Virus record (IMG/VR): IMGVR_UViG_3300008110_010000
Coordinates: 72,199-130,017 of that record
Direction: 5' to 3' (one strand)
From: a virus
Length of the DNA stretch: 57,819 nucleotides
How positions within the stretch are numbered: position 1 is the first letter of the stretch; the number at the start of each line of letters is the position of its first letter. Of this stretch, positions 17,854 through 24,002 are shown one piece after another. The notes beneath the pieces are model-generated. The model ran no database searches and had not been told where the DNA came from. It saw only the letters and a program-made list of their open reading frames with translations. Both the position numbers and the translations under genes were made by a program.

Positions 17854-20800
17854 ATGGCAAAGAAGTTAACTCTGGATCTATCCGTTTTTAAAAGTTCTGG
17901 TGTCTATACCTTAGAATTTGATGCTTCTGAAAATATTGTAGTAAATCCACAGACAGTAAGATTAGTGGTTGGATTTTCAAACAAGGGCCCATTCAACACT
18001 CCAGTTTATGTGCCAGACGTTCAGACAGCTATTAAAGTTTTCGGTGATATCGATAGAGCTTTAGAAAAAAAGGGATCGTTCTTCCATCGATCAATATTCA
18101 CATGCTTAAACAGCGGACCTGTTTTTGCCCTTAATCTTTTAAAGTTGAACAATTCAGTCACAACAAGTGACGATCCAGATGTTGCTAACGGAGCTGATGT
18201 AGCTAGATATAGAACTTTTTCTGTTGACACTGCAGAATCTAACGGAACTAACTCAACTGATGAGTACACGAAGGTAAATGCAAATCTTCCTAAGCAGGAT
18301 AAATTGGTTTCTTCTTATTATAACAAAGAAAAGTTTTGGTTCCCAGATCCAAACATGCTTCTTGCCACAATAGATGTAACTGAGCAATCTAAATTGTTCA
18401 GTCTGGTTAACTTAAGCCAAAACCCAGTAAGTGTTATTGTAAAGAAATCTTTGGATGCTAGACTTCCTATTAAAGGATTTGATATCACAGCTCAAGAATA
18501 TTTTGGAGCTAGCAATGTTCCAAACTTCATGAATCCTTATGATTACATTTCAGATTACTTTGTAGATGTTATCGTAGTAAGCGGAAATTGGACTAAATAT
18601 CAAGAACTTTCTTTAGATCCTATTTACTCCTCATATTTCACATCAAAGGGATTCGTAAAAGCTCAGATTGACAATTTCTTGGCTCTGAAAGAAGTAAACG
18701 TGGTTCTAACTGTAACTGGATGCTTGATTCCAGATTTTGTTGATCAAAACGGAATCACACAATACATTAAGACATTAATTAACAATCAAGTAGGACAAAC
18801 AGGAGTACTTTGTGCAGTAAATGAAGAGGCTTTAGATGATTTATCATCAGGAGATTACTCTTATATAGATTTAGTTGGCCATCACCTAACGGGTGCTTTA
18901 AATCCAGCTAATCCTGAAATCAACGAAATAGATTTCTTAAGTTATAGTTCTCCGCTAACTGCAGATTTTACATACACTCAAAATTCTAACACCATAACAG
19001 ATCTTGATAGCCCTTATTCAGATCTTATTGAAATCGGAACAACATTTGTTGATGCCTTCGGCTCACCTAGTGTTGATGGAGTATTTGAAGAAGATTTTGC
19101 AGCATATAGCTCTACAAATCTTGATTCTGGATTACCATATTTGCAAACAAATTTCTTAGGTGCAGATGCAACTAGCAGAAAAAACGCACTAAAAAATTTC
19201 TTGGCAGTTACTGCAACATCTCCAGCATCTAAATTCATTATTGGTAAAGTTACTGGAAATATTTCAGGGAATGTTGAAGCTAAAAAAGCTTTCTCTGCCA
19301 ATGACATAGTTAAATTAAAGGTTGAGGAAGTAAAAGAGGTAACAGTTTCTCCTGGAAACGTACAACTTAGAATTAAATGGTCACATCCTTTATTTAAAGC
19401 TGCTTCTCCTTTAGTTTCTCCTTATTATAGAACAAACATAGGAGGAAGCCACTATCAATTCTGTAAAGCAGATTACTTTGATAGATTTGATCCAATTGAA
19501 ACAAGTCCTGGACCTCTTGGAAGTCCAACTCCTATTAATCCACAGACATTAGGAAACTACACATACTTCGGTTATGCTGAATCTAAACTTTTCTTAGATC
19601 ATAAAAATGGATTAATTAGCGACGGAGACGTAATTTACAAAGCATATGACGGATCATCAGTTCAATATCTTAAATTTGAAAACTCTGTAGACAGAGACGG
19701 ATTTGAAACAGTTGAAATGAAATCCTACGTTGATGCTGATTTCACAACAGAAGAAGCAGCGGTTTCATTGGGTGTAAGTTATAAAACTTCCTCAACAGGA
19801 TCATCAGATACTGTAGACTCTGATGAAGTAAACATCGTATCAATTGCAGGAAACCTAAATCAATTTGTTAATGTAATCTCGGTTATTTCAACAAACCAGG
19901 TGGAAGTATCAGTTACTGAAGTAGCTGCAACATCTCTTAAAGTAGGTGATCTCCTAGTATCACAGGACGTTGATCAATTTGAAAACGCAGTTGGTAATAA
20001 ACTTAACAGATTAACAAGAATTATAGAATCTAAGAAAGTAGCAGTTCCTGGATCACCTGGAAACTACACAATTTACGTGAAAACGGATAGACCTATTCTT
20101 CTTTACTCCGGAGCTAACGCAAGAGTGAATAAGTTTAGACCGATACATCAATTCGTGGAAACCTACAAGATTTCATATCTTCCCGGCTTCCAGCTTAAAA
20201 CCTCTCACAAGCCTAACGGATCTGATGACAGATTAGACGAAATCTTGGACGTTTTAACCACAACCAATATTTCTAAAACACTTGCTGATAGAAATATTAT
20301 CACTTTCAGATATGTTGTTGATACGTTTGATGGACAAATTCAAACTAACTCCAAACATCAACTAGCTAAATTAGCTAAAGATAGACAGAAATGTCTTGCA
20401 ATTATTAATGCTCCTTCAATGGAGAAATTTAAGGATTCAATAGATCCAAGATTTACTGACGCACCTTCAGCAACAGAACCAGCTCCTTTACTAAGAGCAA
20501 AGTATATTGCAGAGGGCGGAAACTTAGAACTAAATCCTTCATTCAGATTCACTTTACCTGATGAAGATAGTGGAGCTAAATTCTGCGGTGTGTTTGGACC
20601 TTTCTTAACTATAAGAGAAAATGGTAAAAACTTTAATATTCCTCCAGCTGCACACGTAAGTAATAATTTCATTAGAAAATTTGTTACTGGAGAACCTTAT
20701 TCTATCGTAGCTGGTCAAAAAAGAGGGGTACTTTCAGGATCTAACTTAGTTGGACTTGAATATGATTTCTCTCAGGATGATAGAGATTTCTTAGAACCCT

Positions 20801-21225
20801 TTGGATTCAACCCAATCATCAGAAAGAGAAATATTGGATTGGTAATATTTGGTAACCAAACAGGATATCAAAGAACTAACTCAGCATTTAATAACTTGCA
20901 CGTTAGAGATCTTCTAATTACTCTTGAAGAAAGTGTTGAGGATATTCTTTCGAATTACGTATTTGATTTTAACGAAGATTCAATCAGACTTGAAATTAAA
21001 ACTATCGTAGACAATTACTTAAGCGGCGTTAAAAACGTTGGAGGTATCTATAACTACTTAACTATTATGGATTCTTCTAATAATACTCCTGCTATCATAG
21101 ATCAAAACTTAGGAATTATCGATATCATTCTCGAACCTGCTAGAGGTATTCATAAGTTTATCAACAGAGTAACTGTTACAAGAACTGGTGGTATTGCTTC
21201 TGGAGGTTTCATCCAATTCAGTTAA
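17854..21225 (+). CDS. 18: Tail sheath protein gp18, enlarged
   Basis: The N-terminus (SGVYTLEFDASE, then PQTVRLVVGFSNKGPFNTPVYV) and a VFALNLLKL strand are typical of contractile sheaths. The C-terminal domain has FCGVFGPFLTIREN, GPF-like and ANR-like helices, then LLITLEESVEDIL and a final beta strand used in the sheath handshake. At 1123 residues it is much longer than T4 gp18 (659). The extra material lies in the middle (about 330-780) and probably forms surface domains. Two tandem late boxes precede it, fitting a very abundant product. It is followed by the two tube genes. Confidence 0.9.
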   Translation: MAKKLTLDLSVFKSSGVYTLEFDASENIVVNPQTVRLVVGFSNKGPFNTPVYVPDVQTAIKVFGDIDRALEKKGSFFHRSIFTCLNSGPVFALNLLKLNNSVTTSDDPDVANGADVARYRTFSVDTAESNGTNSTDEYTKVNANLPKQDKLVSSYYNKEKFWFPDPNMLLATIDVTEQSKLFSLVNLSQNPVSVIVKKSLDARLPIKGFDITAQEYFGASNVPNFMNPYDYISDYFVDVIVVSGNWTKYQELSLDPIYSSYFTSKGFVKAQIDNFLALKEVNVVLTVTGCLIPDFVDQNGITQYIKTLINNQVGQTGVLCAVNEEALDDLSSGDYSYIDLVGHHLTGALNPANPEINEIDFLSYSSPLTADFTYTQNSNTITDLDSPYSDLIEIGTTFVDAFGSPSVDGVFEEDFAAYSSTNLDSGLPYLQTNFLGADATSRKNALKNFLAVTATSPASKFIIGKVTGNISGNVEAKKAFSANDIVKLKVEEVKEVTVSPGNVQLRIKWSHPLFKAASPLVSPYYRTNIGGSHYQFCKADYFDRFDPIETSPGPLGSPTPINPQTLGNYTYFGYAESKLFLDHKNGLISDGDVIYKAYDGSSVQYLKFENSVDRDGFETVEMKSYVDADFTTEEAAVSLGVSYKTSSTGSSDTVDSDEVNIVSIAGNLNQFVNVISVISTNQVEVSVTEVAATSLKVGDLLVSQDVDQFENAVGNKLNRLTRIIESKKVAVPGSPGNYTIYVKTDRPILLYSGANARVNKFRPIHQFVETYKISYLPGFQLKTSHKPNGSDDRLDEILDVLTTTNISKTLADRNIITFRYVVDTFDGQIQTNSKHQLAKLAKDRQKCLAIINAPSMEKFKDSIDPRFTDAPSATEPAPLLRAKYIAEGGNLELNPSFRFTLPDEDSGAKFCGVFGPFLTIRENGKNFNIPPAAHVSNNFIRKFVTGEPYSIVAGQKRGVLSGSNLVGLEYDFSQDDRDFLEPFGFNPIIRKRNIGLVIFGNQTGYQRTNSAFNNLHVRDLLITLEESVEDILSNYVFDFNEDSIRLEIKTIVDNYLSGVKNVGGIYNYLTIMDSSNNTPAIIDQNLGIIDIILEPARGIHKFINRVTVTRTGGIASGGFIQFS

Positions 21226-21852: not shown

Positions 21853-22434
21853 ATGGCAGGACTACCACATTTTACGAGTTCAAAAGCAGCAGTAAGCCTA
21901 TATGAACCGGTTTATTTAAACCAGTTTGAGGTTATAATCCAACCCCCTGCAGCAGTTTCAAACCCTGTGGGAAATGCAGGTAGATCACTTTTGGTTGAAA
22001 ATATCATCTCTATCACAGGATTGGAGGTAGATAAAACACCAAGACCTGTAGAACAAAACTACAAATTTGCAAGAAGAAGATATGCAGGTGGAGCAGTAGA
22101 GGATACTGGTGCTAGAATTAGATTACAATTCCACACAAATCTAGATGACAATAATTCTAACTATGTTCACAAGACATTGAGAGAATGGTCAGATTTAGTT
22201 TATAATCCTCTAACAGGTGCTATGGGAATTAAAAGTACTTATGCAGCTAACACATACGTTTTAGTAAGTATGTTCAATAAACAAGGAGATGTTTTTAGAA
22301 GAGTTAAATTTTTAAATTGCTTCCCGATAGAAGCGATTACAGCTATTCCTCTACAATATGAGGGAGGTGGAAATAGACTTTATGATATAAACATATCATT
22401 CAGAGCTGACTACTTCGAAGACACATTCAATTAA
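21853..22434 (+). CDS. 19: Tail tube protein gp19 paralogue, copy 2
   Basis: 193 residues, colinear with copy 1 over its whole length. Both have MAGLPH, a YEP-Y-NQFEV-I-PPA segment, LDDNNSNYVHK, REWSDLVYNPLTGAMG and DVFRRVKFLNCF. It has drifted most in the loops between residues 40-75 and at the C-terminus. It starts 14 bases after copy 1 with the same A-rich leader and ends in a terminator. It may form part of the tube, a distal or terminal ring, or a separate hub-proximal tube; the sequence does not decide. Confidence 0.85.
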   Translation: MAGLPHFTSSKAAVSLYEPVYLNQFEVIIQPPAAVSNPVGNAGRSLLVENIISITGLEVDKTPRPVEQNYKFARRRYAGGAVEDTGARIRLQFHTNLDDNNSNYVHKTLREWSDLVYNPLTGAMGIKSTYAANTYVLVSMFNKQGDVFRRVKFLNCFPIEAITAIPLQYEGGGNRLYDINISFRADYFEDTFN

Positions 22435-22486: not shown

Positions 22487-22574
22487 TTGATTTTTTGTAA
22501 AGAAGGAGAACATTATCCAAGCATGGACGAAGGTGATAAAGAATCTAGAGAAATACAAGAAGAAGGAGAAAAGG

Positions 22575-22772
22575 ATGATCCTTTTCAGAGATACGTCTCT
22601 AATGTTAGCGATGTTCTTTCTCCCATTTGGTTACGACGCTTTATTCAAGTTAATCATGGATTTAACTGGTTCATATTGGGTTGCAGATATCGTTTTTTAT
22701 TCAATTTCAGGATGTTTTTGGTTATCATATATCTTACTTACGAGACATTTAAATAAAGCCAAAAAATCTTAG
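22575..22772 (+). CDS. Small membrane protein
   Basis: 65 residues from ATG 22575, which is preceded by AAGGAGAAAAGG, one of the better Shine-Dalgarno-like sequences here. A GTG at 22533 would add a Lys-rich tail. Two hydrophobic helices (LMLAMFFLPFGYDALFKLIM and VFYSISGCFWLSYILL) are separated by DLTGSYWVAD. An overlapping frame starting at ATG 22523 gives an acidic protein that becomes implausible after 35 residues. The membrane frame is preferred. Function unknown; position is between tube and baseplate-hub genes. Confidence 0.55.
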   Translation: MILFRDTSLMLAMFFLPFGYDALFKLIMDLTGSYWVADIVFYSISGCFWLSYILLTRHLNKAKKS

Positions 22773-22840: not shown

Positions 22841-23824
22841 ATGGAAAATACTTTTGAAAACGAAATGCTTTCAAAGCTCTCTGAAAGAGAGAAAGAAAGC
22901 GGATTAAACTATGAGGAATTAACCCCTCCCCAACAGGAAATTCCAAAATCACTAGGAAAGGCGTCCTTTGTCGAAGAGAGTCTTTCTGAACTGGCCATGG
23001 AATCCCCCTGGAAAAAATTACCTCTAGAAAATTTACCCTCTCAGGGTTTTGGATATCCGGAAGAAACAGAGCTTTCTATTAGATCAGCGGAGGTTTCAGA
23101 AATTCGTCATTTCTCAACAATAGATGAAAATGATCCCATAGATATAGACGATAAAATAAATCATATAATTTCTAAATGCTCTTCTTTTAGATGGAAAGGA
23201 GGGGTCTTGAATTTCCAAGATATTTATCAGGAAGATAGATTTTATATTTTTATGGCAATTCGTGATTTGACTTTTGTTAAAGGGGAAAACAGAATATTTA
23301 TTCCTATTCAAAATAAATGCACTAAAGAAGATTGCCCGATTCCTTCAGAGATTGAATTGACGTCAGGAGTTCTTTCTAATTTTTCATTAGATCCAAAACT
23401 TAAAACATATTATGACCATGAAAATGGTTATTTTCAATTAACACCCAAAAATGGTGATCCTGCAATTCAACTTTTCATTCCTACTATTGGGGTATCTCAA
23501 AAAATCAGGAAAATTCTAAGAGATAAAACTAGGGCAGGTAAAAAATACGACTCATCATTTGCCACGGTATCTCCTTTCCTAATACCTAACTGGAGAGATC
23601 TTGATGAAAAATCTTACGACTCTTATGAAATGAACTCCAAAAACTGGACATATACCCAGTTTGTTTTATCTGATAATATTTCTAAACAGATAACATTTGC
23701 TACAAAAAATAATTTGTCTGTAATTTGTAATAAATGCGGTGCCGAGGTCACTGCTCCTATCCGATTTCGCGGGGGAATCAGATCCCTTTTCATTGTTTCA
23801 GATATCTTTGGACAACTACTTTGA
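22841..23824 (+). CDS. 26: gp26-like baseplate hub / tail assembly protein
   Basis: 327 residues. After a 55-residue charged leader come WKKLPLENLPSQGFGYPEET, SIRSAEVSEIRHFSTIDEND and FQDIYQEDRFYIFMAIRDLT. This is the layout of the T4_baseplate (gp26) family in large T4-like phages (LPS-G, target helix, then L-D--Y-FLQ-R). Cysteines CTKEDC and CNKCG could form a zinc site. The end, RFRGGIRSLFIVSDIFGQLL, matches the ...I-GL-SFF end of the family. The last sense codon and stop are CTT TGA, and the gp51-like frame overlaps the last 86 bases; see finding. Family call moderate. Confidence 0.6.
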   Translation: MENTFENEMLSKLSEREKESGLNYEELTPPQQEIPKSLGKASFVEESLSELAMESPWKKLPLENLPSQGFGYPEETELSIRSAEVSEIRHFSTIDENDPIDIDDKINHIISKCSSFRWKGGVLNFQDIYQEDRFYIFMAIRDLTFVKGENRIFIPIQNKCTKEDCPIPSEIELTSGVLSNFSLDPKLKTYYDHENGYFQLTPKNGDPAIQLFIPTIGVSQKIRKILRDKTRAGKKYDSSFATVSPFLIPNWRDLDEKSYDSYEMNSKNWTYTQFVLSDNISKQITFATKNNLSVICNKCGAEVTAPIRFRGGIRSLFIVSDIFGQLL

Positions 23825-24002
23825 AATCAAAAGAAAGCTAGCAAAAGATCATAATATTTCTTTTTCAGAGCTGGAAAAACTTCCATATTTTGAATTTCAA
23901 ATCATCCTTGAAAAAATAAACAGGGAAATAGAAGAGAGAAACAAGAAAATTATCAAAGAGAAAGACGGATTGGTACCCATTTTTAATTTAACCAAGCAAT
24001 AA
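23739..24002 (+). CDS. 51: gp51-like baseplate hub assembly segment, no ATG start
   Basis: The frame overlaps the end of the gp26-like gene in +1. Recognisable sequence begins DNYFEIKRKLAKDHNIS, FSELEKLPYFEFQIILEKIN and a charged helix. This is the pattern (short helix, Y-L-ELE-MP-WE) found in gp51-like proteins after gp26 in T4-like phages and resembles tail chaperone extensions. No ATG exists in this frame before the conserved part. Only GTG 23739 (inside the gp26 zinc-binding region) or TTG 23805 could initiate. It may be made as a gp26-gp51 fusion by +1 frameshifting at 23819, as a TTG-initiated 65-residue protein, or both. Confidence 0.5.
   Translation: MPRSLLLSDFAGESDPFSLFQISLDNYFEIKRKLAKDHNISFSELEKLPYFEFQIILEKINREIEERNKKIIKEKDGLVPIFNLTKQ
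23819..23825 (+). promoter_or_regulatory. Candidate +1 ribosomal frameshift site CTTTGAA
   Basis: Frame of the gp26-like gene reads CTT TGA (stop 23822-23824). Slipping one base forward reads CTT then GAA, entering the gp51-like frame. CUU UGA is the same codon pair used in the bacterial prfB +1 frameshift. No strong Shine-Dalgarno-like stimulator is seen just upstream. Confidence 0.4.

Follow-up and report, generated by a model that had tools for sequence, protein, structure and literature searches.

A putative programmed +1 frameshift at UUU_C in a T4-type tail-assembly chaperone gene

The gp26-like gene and its overlapping +1 frame

We analyzed a 57,819-nucleotide stretch of viral DNA (positions 72,199 to 130,017 of IMG/VR record IMGVR_UViG_3300008110_010000; "the window"), in which a tail-assembly chaperone (TAC) gene resembling gene 26 of phage T4 is overlapped by a frame resembling T4 gp51. 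The gp26-like gene (22841-23824, plus strand, as are all features below) encodes 327 amino acids in the zero frame, with a zinc ribbon (CNKCG) near the C-terminus, and its product is the putative counterpart of T4 gp26, the N form of the chaperone (TAC-N). The gp51-like frame, +1 relative to this gene, is open throughout 23739-24002. Its part from 23769 to the TAA stop at 24000-24002, beginning AGESDPFSLFQISLDNYFEIK, matches phrog_634 and corresponds to the C-terminal domain of gp51. Between 23769 and 23821, the gp26 tail and the gp51 extension are encoded by the same nucleotides, and the synonymous sites are frozen. The zero-frame codons TTT CGC (23765-23770) stand directly at the 5' boundary of this overlap. 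From the sequence, we consider it very likely that a programmed +1 frameshift occurs at UUU_C (23765-23768) and produces a gp26-gp51 fusion.

The overlap was retained in all 19 complete junctions obtained in a first homologue search, with protein identities of 71-100%. A wider set, drawn from IMG/VR contigs and named phages (e.g., Lak, PAU, pT24, PTm1, and MA9V), contained 159 distinct loci in 74 clusters at 85% protein identity. Codon alignment showed that about 0.3-0.6 of the gp26 synonymous sites differed through the gene, with synonymous divergence at about 0.45 before it dropped to 0.07 in the last 15 codons, and the rare changes in these codons were mostly synonymous in the +1 frame or located at a Gly wobble position that is free in the zero frame. 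Substitutions were then counted in disjoint nearest (sister) pairs. Upstream of TTT C, 237 of 397 substitutions fell at zero-frame codon position 3 and 22% at position 1, while in the overlap downstream, 62 of 114 (54%) fell at zero-frame position 1, the third codon position in the +1 frame (Fisher p about 1e-10). The share of +1-synonymous changes rose from 75/397 (19%) to 55/114 (48%; p about 2e-9), and the substitution rate was more than 3-fold lower downstream of TTT C than upstream. The best-conserved residues of the +1 protein (F-S-L-F....L) also lie within the overlap, in an alignment with members down to 22% identity. The constraint on the +1 frame starts exactly at TTT C, about 54 nucleotides (approximately 18 codons) upstream of CTT TGA (CTT 23819-23821, TGA 23822-23824), where the gp26-like frame ends. 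The periodicity, the +1 synonymy, and the conserved residues in the overlap thus indicate that translation in the +1 frame sets in at TTT C, well upstream of CTT TGA.

The domain composition of the two products corresponds to that of the T4 proteins. T4 gp26 and gp51 each align with the entire PF12322 profile (8.8e-64 and 3.9e-52), and in gp51 a further C-terminal segment is covered by phrog_634; the two are PF12322 paralogues, and the C domain added by gp51 is encoded here in the +1 frame. The zero-frame product of the window matched phrog_150 (E = 6.9e-5), with PF12322 sub-threshold at 0.026, and PF12322 was above the cut-off in the relatives L109 (3.4e-8), L103 (7.1e-7), and L107 (1.2e-5). 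The +1 peptide matched columns 59-115 of phrog_634 (E = 7.5e-6), and the deduced fusion matched the same family across the junction (columns 28-115, fusion residues 286-373). Structures were predicted separately for the two parts. The gp26-like fold (predicted local distance difference test score, pLDDT, 81) matched T4-like baseplate hub assembly proteins with template modeling (TM) scores of about 0.4-0.5, and the +1 peptide was predicted as three helices (pLDDT 70), for which no significant fold match was found. Since the N part belongs with PF12322/phrog_150 and the +1 part with phrog_634, TAC-N, the product without a shift, would be gp26-like, and TAC-NC, the fusion made by shifting, would be gp51-like. 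The +1 peptide of one relative (L196, 2315-2620) gave a weak match to DUF6760 (E = 0.22), a short family that adjoins PF12322 in contractile injection systems.

The UUU_C site and the upstream GAGGTC element

A zero-frame TTT followed by C was present in 154 of the 159 loci, 19-21 codons before the gp26 stop, as TTTCCC (127), TTTCGC (22), TTTCAA (2), TTTCCT (2), or TTTCCA (1), and in none of the 154 does a +1 stop occur in the 33 codons that follow TTTC. The codon after TTT always starts with C although its residue varies (R, P, Q), and TTT is used in 70/70 clusters against a background of 66%. In the window, TTT CGC at 23765 is the sole in-frame occurrence among about 17,500 codons, and CGC accounts for 8 of 612 Arg codons. 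Upstream of the +1 TTC codon, the +1 frame is open for at most 25 codons in all clusters, and in 18/70 clusters a +1 stop lies only two codons before it. Four clusters (L056, L057, L084, and L191) contain no ATG, GTG, or TTG from the +1 stop to the gp51 core; in these, the +1 frame must be entered by a shift at TTT C or the preceding codon. Of these two codons, TTT C is the slip-competent one, as tRNA-Phe can re-pair from UUU to UUC (23766-23768 in the window). A -2 shift at TTT C was also considered and rejected: the triplets with which tRNA-Phe would re-pair two bases back (CCU, ACU, GAU, AAU, UGU, and others) are not conserved, whereas re-pairing from UUU to UUC is always conserved.

These findings suggest the following course of translation. 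Most ribosomes would stay in the zero frame for a further 18 codons, until TGA 23822, and release the gp26-like TAC-N. In a fraction of ribosomes, the P-site tRNA-Phe would slip one base forward from UUU (23765-23767) to UUC while the A site holds the rare codon CGC, and reading would go on with GCG GGG GAA ... to yield a 386-amino-acid gp26-gp51C fusion (TAC-NC), the counterpart of T4 gp51. The tryptic peptide predicted for this junction is FAGESDPFSLFQISLDNYFEIK. By analogy with lambda G/GT, TAC-N and TAC-NC may coat the tape measure and recruit tube subunits. We infer that slippage occurs here with some efficiency and that its products act as chaperones. The influenza PA-X shift has been mapped to UCC_UUU_CGU, re-pairing from UUU to UUC has been argued for it, and a slowly read A-site codon is a stimulus of +1 slippage in bacteria and yeast (PMC3498833).

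A Shine-Dalgarno (SD)-like sequence, GAGGTC (23744-23749), lies 15 nucleotides before TTT, and (G)GAGGTC occupies positions -22 to -16 from TTT in relatives. Codons -7 and -6 before TTT are GAG GTC in 63/70 clusters, although across the same genes Glu is written as GAG in 33% and Val as GTC in 9% of cases. The third base of codon -8 is G in about 52/70 clusters, even though the amino acid encoded there varies. The stretch is outside the dual-coded part, with +1 stops between GAGGTC and TTT in many clusters. Being conserved without being dual-coded, it is therefore apparently selected as nucleic acid. In prfB, an SD-like element lies 3 bases from the shift site (PMC12421855), and at -1 frameshift sites the SD is found 8-11 bases upstream (PMC6321510). 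A role of GAGGTC as an initiation signal for gp51 was rejected, since no +1-frame start codon follows it at 5-11 nucleotides in the clades inspected. GAGGTC and the rare A-site codon may instead stimulate the shift.

The same arrangement was recovered by a DNA-only scan of a viral contig collection with the pattern GGAGGTC-N15-TTTCCC-N3-GG, which gave at least 120 matching stretches. Among the matches listed, 118 of 120 were gp26-like genes; the listed matches fall into 68 clusters when grouped at 85% identity and 12 at 50%, and in all of them the +1 frame stays open for the next 33 codons. Part of this specificity comes from shared ancestry. On balance, we lean toward the view that (G)GAGGTC, 15 nucleotides, and UUU_CCC/CGC constitute a distinct prokaryotic +1 cassette, in which a sense-codon UUU_C site is aided by a distant SD-like element, and that a large T4-related jumbo phage lineage (relatives including Lak, PAU, and Tenacibaculum phages) uses it to obtain both the gp26-like and the gp51-like protein from a single gene.

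Several observations weigh against a frameshift at UUU_C aided by this cassette. The spacing of 15 bases is not described for known frameshift stimulators and is not known to favor +1 shifts. No downstream RNA structure was found over 80 nucleotides (mean z 0.17). The four clusters L105/L111, L106, L108, and L114 keep the +1 overlap without the canonical cassette, carrying TTT CTA, TTT CGA, CCC A, or an unclear sequence; other slip sites may be used in them. In clade 3 (L201-L278), ATG ATG is conserved at +1 codons 11-12 after TTC and may serve a short, separately started gp51C. In addition, when the +1 peptide or the fusion was compared by hhalign with gp51 of the T4 group (5 to 8 sequences), no significant match for the gp51 C region resulted, so that the family link rests on the PHROG and Pfam matches and the fold.

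Alternative routes to the gp51-like protein

We consider it very unlikely that gp51C is a separate gene translated without frameshifting from an internal start, namely GTG 23739, TTG 23808, or a non-canonical codon. The sequence-only reading, which was right that no ATG precedes the conserved gp51 part in the window, had considered initiation at a TTG and placed it at 23805; the codon lies at 23808-23810. Both GTG and TTG are indeed present in the window, ATG ATG occurs within the frame in clade 3 relatives, and a short separate open reading frame (ORF) is annotated in several phages (PAU gp94, MA9V, and Mosig). However, the TTG is unconserved and is TTA in many relatives. The absence of ATG from the gp51 frame did not extend to all relatives, some clades having an internal ATG, but the four clusters without ATG, GTG, or TTG before the core and the 18 with a +1 stop two codons before TTC are difficult to reconcile with an internal start. 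Furthermore, the interval from GTG 23739 to TTT C shows no +1-frame constraint, with radical changes such as L/P/H and S/F, and an internal start leaves the invariant TTT C and GAGGTC unexplained. We therefore rejected initiation at GTG 23739 or TTG 23808 as a general mechanism.

A +1 shift of the prfB type at CTT TGA, which the sequence-only reading proposed, seems highly improbable to us. This model gives full-length gp26 followed by EIKRK... and predicts the peptide SLFIVSDIFGQLLEIK. The coordinates bear out that the gp26-like frame ends in CTT TGA and that +1 reading after CTT enters the gp51-like frame (GAA ATC AAA), and +1 slippage on CUU_U is proven for prfB (PMC12421855). The pair sits exactly at the junction in all 19 close junctions of the first search; over the wider set, however, it is found in only 32/70 clusters, comprising 6/7 of the window clade, 26/36 of clade 2, 0/20 of clade 3, and 0/7 of the rest. 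It is replaced by GAA TAA in clade 3 and by CTT TAA in L103 and L051, and is absent in PAU; a +1 overlap of this kind exists without the pair in clade 3, Lak-like, and PAU-type phages. Where present, CTT TGA is a consequence of encoding Y/F-F-[D/E] in the +1 frame and Leu-Leu-stop in gp26, and thus it does not mark a shift site. A shift at this position also leaves the +1-frame constraint upstream of it unexplained. An SD-like AGGGGG 3 nucleotides upstream is near-universal in the prfB motif (PMC12421855), but the sequence before CTT TGA is ATCTTTGGACAACTA, without this motif at that distance. The hosts of the named relatives are mostly Bacteroidota, and in Flavobacterium johnsoniae shifting is poor even at a real prfB motif (PMC12421855). 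CTT TGA is probably not the shift site and appears to be merely the end of the gp26 frame, although it may make a minor contribution to shifting. The broader proposal of a gp26-gp51 fusion made by +1 frameshifting in the manner of lambda G/GT is supported by the dual coding and the stop-bounded +1 frame.

That the overlap is an RNA or DNA element, such as an operator or processing site, with an incidentally open +1 frame would suit the strong nucleotide conservation, including that of GAGGTC outside the dual-coded part, but is scarcely credible, as changes within the overlap show the codon periodicity of the +1 frame, the peptide encoded there is conserved down to 22% identity and matches a gp51 family, and no RNA fold signal was found.

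Tail-gene context and comparison with known systems

The gp26-like gene lies downstream of a tail sheath-like gene (17854-21225; PF17482, E = 9.8e-5) and a tail tube-like gene (21853-22434; phrog_45, E = 7e-5). Short overlapping ORFs (22533-22772 and 22487-22756) are located between the tube genes and gp26, and a family match sought for the ORF at 22533 was not found. Downstream of gp26/gp51 is an ORF of 496 amino acids without a recognized family, and no tape measure was identified there.

T4 itself has two genes and no frameshift, and how T4-like phages make both chaperone forms is a standing question. Vladimirov et al. 2022 (doi 10.1016/j.virol.2021.11.003) reportedly identified the tail assembly chaperones of T4-like phages, and the title of that paper suggests that they arise by some mechanism distinct from frameshifting. 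A single gene that yields both forms by a +1 shift would offer a testable evolutionary route linking frameshifting with gene duplication. In related phages, the small gp51 ORF, where annotated, is listed as a gene of its own or as a hypothetical one. Tail chaperones made by frameshifting are already known, and the +1 UUU_C cassette looks like a new form of them; our literature search, which was of partial coverage, found no description of a +1 UUU_C frameshift in phages.

Tail chaperone frameshifts are general among phages, and the window gene resembles lambda G/GT in having one start, a short N form, a rarer N+C fusion, and a shift close to where the first ORF ends (PMC5009743). In contrast, lambda shifts by -1, while the window gene would shift by +1 on UUU_C and belongs to the T4 PF12322 family. 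With T4 gp26 and gp51 it shares the family and the domain split, gp26 being the N form and gp51 the N+C form; in T4, however, these are paralogous genes on opposite strands, and no frameshift is involved, whereas the window has one gene with a proposed frameshift.

According to PMC12846349, which cites Vladimirov 2022, T4-like TAC-N genes are known to carry poly-T signals for -1 shifting. In Pelagibacter phage Mosig (L292, around 2510-2720), we found that gp26 and gp51 overlap in the -1 frame at GAT TTT TTC (U6), with AAGGGAG just upstream; the annotated Mosig gp51 (45 amino acids) probably lacks its first part. In both cases the gp26-gp51C overlap would be resolved by frameshifting, but Mosig would shift by -1 on U6, and the window by +1 on UUU_C with GAGGTC further upstream. 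If the proposed (G)GAGGTC-UUU_C cassette is real, it represents a third solution beside the two genes of T4 and the -1 poly-U site.

As in prfB CUU_UGA, +1 slippage would occur in the P site in the presence of an internal SD-like sequence, but the window gene has a sense codon in the A site and a spacing of about 15 nucleotides. A matching slip sequence is that of the UUU_CGN class of +1 sites, known from influenza PA-X and the amalgaviruses (PMC3498833), with which the window clade shares UUU_C and a rare CGN codon in the A site. As in that class, the +1 coding region is bordered on its 5' side by zero-frame UUU_C, here in 154/159 loci. That class is known from eukaryotic RNA viruses, whereas the loci described here are from bacterial phages and mostly carry CCC as the A-site codon, with an SD-like element on the 5' side. 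If our reading is correct, the UUU_C class of +1 sites extends to bacteria, with a strongly conserved two-part cassette.
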